DNA of 64,000 bases from Thalassotalea sp. (GTDB lineage: Bacteria > Pseudomonadota > Gammaproteobacteria > Enterobacterales > Alteromonadaceae): positions 1-64,000 of the forward strand of contig JAKVCY010000114.1 in assembly GCA_022448425.1 (NCBI GenBank). Direction: 5' to 3'. Made by a program: the position numbers and the translations under genes. Below the pieces are notes generated by a model. The model ran no database searches, was not told the origin of the DNA, and worked only from the letters and a program-made list of their open reading frames with translations. Shown here piece by piece: positions 35,194 to 36,963 of the stretch (the stretch's first letter is position 1; every line of letters starts with the position of its first letter).

Positions 35194-36063
35194 ATGCTCA
35201 AAATATTTCACGGAAGAAGTGCTCAAGTACATAAAATACCATGTCAGGCTTTAGCCCAAAGAACACCTTTTCAGCTCAGCTTGATGTTTGGTGCACTGTT
35301 TAGTCTCACTGCGTGTAGTGGAGGCGGCGATAAATCATCAGAAGCTCCAATTGATGATTTAAACGAAGCACCGCCCAAATATACTGGTTTACCGATACCA
35401 CAAAACCAAGATGTTGCAGATTATAAAATACTCTATTTTGGTAATAGTCATGTTGCTGGTCAACCGGAACTCATTAAGACGTTAATAGAAAACGCGCTCC
35501 CTAACAAAACCGTAGTGGCAGAAACTGCACCAGGACTGCACTTTTTAGCAGAGCGGTTAGACGATCCTCGCTCTATGGATATGCTGCTAGAAAACGAATG
35601 GACTCACTTAGTTTTACAAGGACAAAAATATTCTCAAAGCGGTGGAAACATATACCCTACTGATGCTGCTGAAAGCTGGATTACAGTCGCTAAACAAAGC
35701 AACATTACGCCGATATTGTTTCCCGAGCATCCGCAGTTGGGGAATGCACAAGAAGGCCAATACGTTTATGACATTCACACCACAATCGCCAGCAACCAAC
35801 GCAGTTGTGTGAGCCCCATAGGCCCAGCTTGGGATAAGGCCCTAGCAATAGACTCTTCATTAGACTATTACTATTCCGACGGTAATCACGCCGCACCTAT
35901 TGGAAATTTGCTTAGCGCCTATGTTTTTTACGAGGTGATAACAGGAGAACCTGCCGACTTGATTCCTGACATAAATGAGCTTGAGATAGATAAAGAGACT
36001 CAAAGCTTTTTGAGACAAATAGCATCTGAGACATTACTAGAACTTGCTGCTTGCGAGTTTTAG
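35194..36063 (+). CDS. lipoprotein, SGNH-hydrolase-like
   Basis: Lipobox-like LFSLTACSGGG; ILYFGNSHVAGQPELIK; SDGNHAAPIGN. Confidence 0.6.
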   Translation: MLKIFHGRSAQVHKIPCQALAQRTPFQLSLMFGALFSLTACSGGGDKSSEAPIDDLNEAPPKYTGLPIPQNQDVADYKILYFGNSHVAGQPELIKTLIENALPNKTVVAETAPGLHFLAERLDDPRSMDMLLENEWTHLVLQGQKYSQSGGNIYPTDAAESWITVAKQSNITPILFPEHPQLGNAQEGQYVYDIHTTIASNQRSCVSPIGPAWDKALAIDSSLDYYYSDGNHAAPIGNLLSAYVFYEVITGEPADLIPDINELEIDKETQSFLRQIASETLLELAACEF

Positions 36064-36149
36064 CAGGTAGAAACTTCAATCAATCTATTTTATCTATCAA
36101 GATAATCTATTTAATTAATTTTATATATTAAATGGTTTTGCAGATACTA

Positions 36150-36206
36150 GCTCCTGTAAACACATTACCTATTTCACAAGAGAAATAAAAAATAAAGCAC
36201 AGGAGC
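36150..36206 (+). promoter_or_regulatory. possible SD-sequestering 5' leader helix
   Basis: GCTCCTGT (36150-36157) is exactly complementary to ACAGGAGC (36199-36206), which contains the SD of the 36213 ORF. Confidence 0.4.
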
Positions 36207-36212
36207 AATACA

Positions 36213-36350
36213 ATGAAACAGTTAATAGAACAATTCGGTAGCATCATATCTAAAAATGAATACGCTGAAGAAAGCTCAGCTCAAGTTGAATGTAACTACA
36301 GCAACAACTACTACGGCGACCAAGTTTGCCAGCAAAAAAGCACCGACTAA
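36213..36350 (+). CDS. small 45-aa Cys-containing peptide (not in ORF track)
   Basis: MKQLIEQFGSIISKNEYAEESSAQVECNYSNNYYGDQVCQQKSTD; SD AGGAG 7 nt upstream; terminator over the stop codon. Confidence 0.7.
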   Translation: MKQLIEQFGSIISKNEYAEESSAQVECNYSNNYYGDQVCQQKSTD

Positions 36351-36362
36351 GCGGTGCTTTTT
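36335..36362. terminator. bidirectional intrinsic terminator overlapping small ORF stop
   Basis: AAAAAGCACCG-ACTAAG-CGGTGCTTTTT. Confidence 0.85.
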
Positions 36363-36390: not shown

Positions 36391-36963
36391 TTATTTATCT
36401 GCTCGGCTCATAAAGCTCTTTTCTTCAGTGTTAATCTTAATGCGCTCACCAGTAGAAATGTATTCTGGTACCTGAACCACTAAGCCTGTTGTCAATGTCG
36501 CTGGTTTAGTGCGAGATGTTGCTGAAGCGCCTTTAATTGAAGGGTCAGTTTCAACAATTTCGAGTTCGATACTTGAAGGTAAATCCATGCCAACAGGACT
36601 GCCATCTACTAAAATAATTTGAATACCTTGTGTATTCTCGTCGATAAATAGCACTTCATCCGCGATGCTTTCTTTATTTAAGTTGTATGGTGTGTAATCT
36701 TCGTTATCCATGAAAACGTATTCTTCACCGTCAATGTACGAGAACATTGAAGGACGACGAACAAGATCTGCCATATTCAGCATATCGACGTCTTTGAACG
36801 TCTCATCAACTTTTTGACCAGTCACAACATTGTACATGCGCATGCGGTACAAACTACCACCTGCTCGACCTTGAGGCACTGAACGCTCAATATCCTTTAC
36901 CATGTATACGCCGCCATTGTATTCAATCGCCGCATTTTTCTTAATTTCACTAGCCTTTGGCAT
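36391..36963 (-). CDS. efpL: elongation factor P-like protein (EfpL/YeiP)
   Basis: [43 protein letters not shown] ... [30 protein letters not shown]. Confidence 0.85.

Follow-up and report, generated by a model that had tools for sequence, protein, structure and literature searches.

The peptide gene and its surroundings

The window, i.e., the whole stretch of 64,000 nucleotides analysed here, carries a small open reading frame on the forward strand (36213-36350), whose translation is MKQLIEQFGSIISKNEYAEESSAQVECNYSNNYYGDQVCQQKSTD. This overlooked 45-residue peptide is the product of a real gene. The sequence-only reading had proposed an unannotated small ORF with two cysteines, which is borne out by 105 distinct homologous peptides and a coding-type codon pattern. 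The strong Shine-Dalgarno (SD) sequence and the terminator over the stop codon, both described in the same reading, are present as well, and its compact, self-contained transcription unit agrees with a length of about 205 nt from a predicted start near 36155 to the terminator. The connection to OxyR, which is the main clue to function, was absent from that reading. The features of the locus are as follows.

36083..36119, + strand: putative OxyR-type tandem binding site ATCTATTTTATCTATCAAGATAATCTATTTAATTAAT, the top model site in the 64 kb and in fixed register to the promoter
36120..36125, + strand: -35 element TTTATA, abutting the box, in the register of the family TTTAnn
36143..36148, + strand: -10 element GATACT, 17 nt past the -35 element, in the fixed register of the family consensus nAtAnT
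36150..36157, + strand: SD-complementary octamer GCTCCTGT, for the most part before or at the predicted start and probably no helix arm in the transcript
36154..36157, + strand: predicted transcription start, 6-9 nt past the -10 element
36200..36205, + strand: Shine-Dalgarno sequence CAGGAG, 7 nt 5' of the ATG, with an SD present in 101 of 105 members
36213..36350, + strand: gene of the 45-aa peptide, stop included, supported by homologues and codon-position entropy
36291..36329, + strand: core CNYSNNYYGDQVC, residues 27-39, in which C, N, Y, Y, Y, G, D and C are the same in 105 of 105 distinct members
36340..36357, + strand: intrinsic terminator stem-loop GCACCG-ACTAAG-CGGTGC, followed by TTTTT, with the stop codon TAA in the loop

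The arrangement of the terminator, with the stop codon in its loop, is the same in the closest relative of the window (L031) and in L049. With runs of A and T at its sides, the hairpin can act as terminator for the next gene as well, which encodes an EF-P-type protein and runs convergently at 36391-36963. Upstream of the peptide gene, a lipoprotein-like protein (LTACSGG) without a Pfam match is encoded at 35194-36063, and it occupies the same position in L031.

Distribution of the family

The sequence-only reading had suggested a search for homologues together with their synteny. Relatives were found by similarity search in 85 of 199 genomes of the window's own family, while more than half of these genomes (114 of 199) gave no match. 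Wider searches, whose samples overlap with the family sample, covered the order (20 of 296 genomes with a match), the class (6 of 369) and the phylum (12 of 399); two order-level matches (f3, with stops) and one phylum-level match (E 0.009, with stops) are doubtful. In the class sample, the matches beyond the order all fell within one family. As well, 160 relatives were confirmed by scanning named genomes, and the 80 that were kept come from Alteromonas, Colwellia, Thalassotalea, Paraglaciecola, Catenovulum, Pseudoalteromonas, Microbulbifer, Marinobacterium and Thalassolituus, among other genera. The 105 distinct peptides taken from these searches are 31 to 109 residues long, with a median of 45.

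Single members of the family gave no match in Pfam or NCBIfam, and a PDB sequence search with the alignment profile, taken up to E 10, was negative as well. In the open-access literature, we found no paper with the string NYYGDQ and none on such a family; an earlier description elsewhere is possible. An origin from a phage or plasmid was considered and rejected, with no phage record, no confirmed viral contig and one plasmid record.

The conserved core and the coding evidence

Among the 105 distinct peptides, the core C-N-Y-x-[ND]-N-Y-Y-G-D-Q-x-C hardly varies, an invariance that is partly selected, because the named-genome scan used a DNA pattern for CNYx[ND]NYY and the peptide set kept only ORFs with a similar motif. 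The similarity and profile searches of the family, order, class and phylum samples were free of this pattern, and they added members that read CNF in place of CNY, together with a few degenerate cores (CNFSDDYYQDQRC and CNYRNDYYGDLHC among them), all of which keep both cysteines and the two adjacent tyrosines. At the eight core positions identical throughout the set, codon positions 1 and 2 are fixed and the third is free as far as two- and four-fold sites allow. A core that is fixed while third codon positions vary shows coding. Moreover, an SD match of at least 4 nt precedes 101 of the 105 members, compared with 9% of background positions, the former figure being inflated because start codons were chosen partly by their SD.

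The N-terminal part is variable in sequence and tends towards a cationic amphipathic helix, with a mean net charge of +2.2 and, for 101 members, a mean moment z of 1.48. It is down to 13-16 residues in several Microbulbifer members, which suggests that the core is the essential part. The division into a variable N-terminal half and a conserved half with two cysteines makes the leader/core or disulfide-loop layout, as it was called in the sequence-only reading, a fair description. AlphaFold2 predicted, at low confidence (pLDDT 67), a helix at residues 3-14 and short strands at 25-27 and 39-41 flanking the loop. One ORF of 109 aa (L050:5794-6123, the same as L167) contains three linker-separated cores, CNYTNNYYGDQLC, CNYSDNYYGDQLC and CNYSNNYYGDQLC.

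Genomic neighbourhood

In 46 of the 105 distinct loci, the peptide gene directly follows an OxyR-like LysR gene of the same orientation, usually in the company of ahpC/ahpF or katG, and in two further loci one ORF separates oxyR from the peptide gene. KatG is encoded in 26 of the 105 loci and AhpC in 22, and Dps follows in three; all of these counts come from genomes with shared ancestry and do not represent independent events. Besides oxyR and the peroxide genes, no other neighbouring enzyme was seen to recur across genera in the 105 loci.

Colwellia demingiae possesses two oxyR-peptide cassettes (L122 and L154), one with ahpC/ahpF and the other with katG. A plasmid of Saccharobesus litoralis carries a copy of the arrangement ahpF-ahpC-oxyR-peptide (L187, NZ_CP026605.1:158674-158790), for which RefSeq gives the names ahpF, ahpC and 'hydrogen peroxide-inducible genes activator'; the RefSeq record, whose gene table is known to be incomplete, lists nothing for the peptide. 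The oxyR of the window's genome is located on another contig, divergent from katG, and encodes a CX8C cysteine pair (GHCLKDHALAAC). The best NCBIfam model for this oxyR is OxyR, with 215.6 bits, which is under the model cut-off of 329.

An OxyR-type promoter

The recognised OxyR site reads ATAG-N7-CTAT-N7-ATAG-N7-CTAT (PMC5720770, PMC8787470). Upstream of the peptide gene, the alignment reveals one register throughout the family, which consists of a box, TTTAnn, about 17 nt and nAtAnT. A held-out box model ranked 36083-36124 first on both strands of the 64 kb, with 30.4 bits, and the next independent site reached 13.0; this model was built on 47 other promoters with the window, L031, L049 and L075 left out, and a small trace of the window in it is possible, as it was started from a window-including model and re-estimated 40 times. 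The window's box agrees with the extended E. coli consensus at 14 of 20 positions and with the strict one at only 10 of 16.

Two kinds of box can be told apart in the family. In 50 dereplicated loci without an OxyR gene of the peptide-linked cluster, the mean match to the 20-position consensus was 12.88, against 11.22 for shuffled sequences (z 13.6), and upstream regions of 120 other ORFs in those loci, which served as a control, gave z 0.7. The oxyR-linked loci, mostly Colwellia-like, possess an AT-rich box (TAGAATnnnnTTATTGATTTtATtAAATTTACT) that fits the E. coli consensus no better than shuffles do (z -0.5). The model of this AT-rich box, derived from peptide promoters, also marks the promoters of ahpC (p 8e-8) and katG (p 1e-8), well above intergenic controls, and 73% each of the ahpC and katG promoters exceed the 95th percentile of their own shuffles. 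It is only via ahpC, katG and the neighbourhood that the AT-rich box is tied to OxyR. The Colwellia-like box (e.g., in L036, L057 and L122) is clearly unlike the E. coli consensus (TAGAATnnnnTTATTGATTTTATTAAATTTACTGAA), and the difference may reflect a changed DNA preference of the OxyR in these bacteria.

The intergenic region between katG and oxyR in the window's genome obtained only a moderate score with the peptide box model (13.2), and a whole-genome search with the strict OxyR pattern stayed at chance level, with two sites against one in the reversed control. A generic promoter scan found nothing at the peptide locus, which fits an activator-dependent promoter. On the grounds of sequence comparison, OxyR-type control of the peptide gene is well supported.

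The SD-complementary octamer

The perfect upstream complement to the SD that the sequence-only reading had claimed does exist, as GCTCCTGT (36150-36157) is the exact complement of ACAGGAGC. For a single sequence, such an 8-nt anti-SD match is rare by chance (0.2% of shuffles). A translational switch, in which a helix of GCTCCTGT and ACAGGAGC would hide the SD, could draw on this match in the window and its closest relative and on the strong fold of transcripts that start at or before 36151, with six of six SD bases paired. The conserved promoter speaks against the switch, since it predicts a start at 36154-36157, inside GCTCCTGT; most of the helix would then be lost, the octamer would be mostly promoter DNA, and the SD would be open, with one of six bases paired in folds from 36154 or later. 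The arm is also missing from the family at large: a match of 8 nt occurs in only 3 of 105 members, two of these being the window and L031, and L049 has none. A start a few bases further upstream is conceivable, its position being predicted from the promoter. We rejected SD masking as the main mechanism, and the switchable SD access of the sequence-only reading is very improbable.

Proposed function and alternative explanations

In our judgement, the locus is probably a monocistronic small-protein gene of the OxyR (hydrogen peroxide) regulon. It would encode a redox peptide that binds a conserved partner or a metal through its Cys-X11-Cys loop. This proposal builds on the coding signal, the family and its core, the neighbourhood, the promoter architecture and the motif common to ahpC and katG, all obtained by computation. 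Oxidised OxyR would bind the tandem box at 36083-36119 and recruit RNA polymerase to the abutting promoter, and the resulting transcript of about 205 nt would offer ribosomes a strong and open SD. Translation would yield a peptide of the cytosol. Its N-terminal helix would be variable and usually cationic and amphipathic, and its 13-residue Cys-X11-Cys loop, rich in Asn and Tyr, would be invariant. The loop may be the working part, opening or closing (probably by a disulfide) according to the redox state, and its fixed face of Asn, Tyr, Asp and Gln might dock on one conserved cell component, such as a peroxide-response protein or a metal ion. As to its molecular job, we infer that the peptide probably takes part in the peroxide-stress response, as a component not described before. 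More tentatively, as a possibility that we consider rather less likely than not, the OxyR regulon of marine Gammaproteobacteria would have a peptide arm in this peroxide-induced family, whose redox-gated loop would regulate one conserved peroxide-response component or the output of OxyR itself.

The layout of the peptide also recalls ribosomally synthesized and modified peptides (RiPPs), in which case the N-terminal half would be a leader and an enzyme encoded elsewhere would cross-link the CNYxNNYYGDQxC core or change it in another way, possibly giving a metal-binding or signalling product. The invariant core next to a variable leader and the three cores within one 109-aa ORF speak for this, and with its variable leader, its conserved Cys core and its one multi-core precursor the family resembles the precursors of methanobactins and bufferins (MNIO, PF05114). 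These differ in their linked enzyme, which the peptide loci lack: no recurrent maturase, protease or exporter was noticed around the gene in the 105 loci, and the leader, down to 13 residues in length, is not conserved in sequence. PF05114 is absent from the window's genome (G000, 93% complete) and from at least eight other carriers, so that an MNIO-type RiPP is unlikely, and we regard a RiPP of any kind as improbable. A free metal-binding or sacrificial thiol/tyrosine peptide, giving chemical protection (e.g., by holding Fe, Cu or Mn) without a specific partner, would suit the OxyR-type control and the two Cys, Asp, Asn and three Tyr of the fixed loop. Such a scavenger should not need a nearly fixed order of 13 residues, and the core has no His and few acidic ligands; we consider this reading doubtful.

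A regulatory RNA with an incidental reading frame, comparable to OxyS, would account for the length of about 200 nt, the terminator, the OxyR-type promoter and the position next to oxyR in many loci. It is largely refuted, and highly improbable in our view, because codon positions 1 and 2 are fixed while the third is free; furthermore, no Rfam family reached its gathering score, the best being the rimP leader with 29.4 bits against 47.

Relation to known systems

OxyR regulons have been studied for decades, mainly via enzymes, metal proteins and one small RNA. The peptide gene shares with regulon members (katG, ahpC/F, dps and the E. coli OxyS RNA) a tandem box abutting the -35 element, and it often stands beside oxyR, ahpC or katG. 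It departs from them in its short product, which belongs to a family without a named relative, and OxyS is non-coding. A peptide of 31-109 residues with a near-unchanging core and an OxyR-type promoter, whose gene follows oxyR in many marine bacteria, seems to be a component that has been overlooked. Its fixed core offers clear point mutants, and its neighbourhood offers a clear test condition.

MntS is a stress-induced small protein under the control of a metal or redox regulator (PMC4361602). The peptide and MntS are both small single proteins under such a regulator, albeit a different one in each case, and the likeness drawn here is one of description. To our knowledge, MntS does not possess a fixed two-Cys core. 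The pediocin-like bacteriocins have a YGNGVxC motif, to which the YYGxxxC of the peptide core bears what we take to be a superficial likeness. Unlike these bacteriocins, the peptide has no immunity or export gene seen beside it, is encoded in Gram-negative hosts and stands under an OxyR-type promoter.
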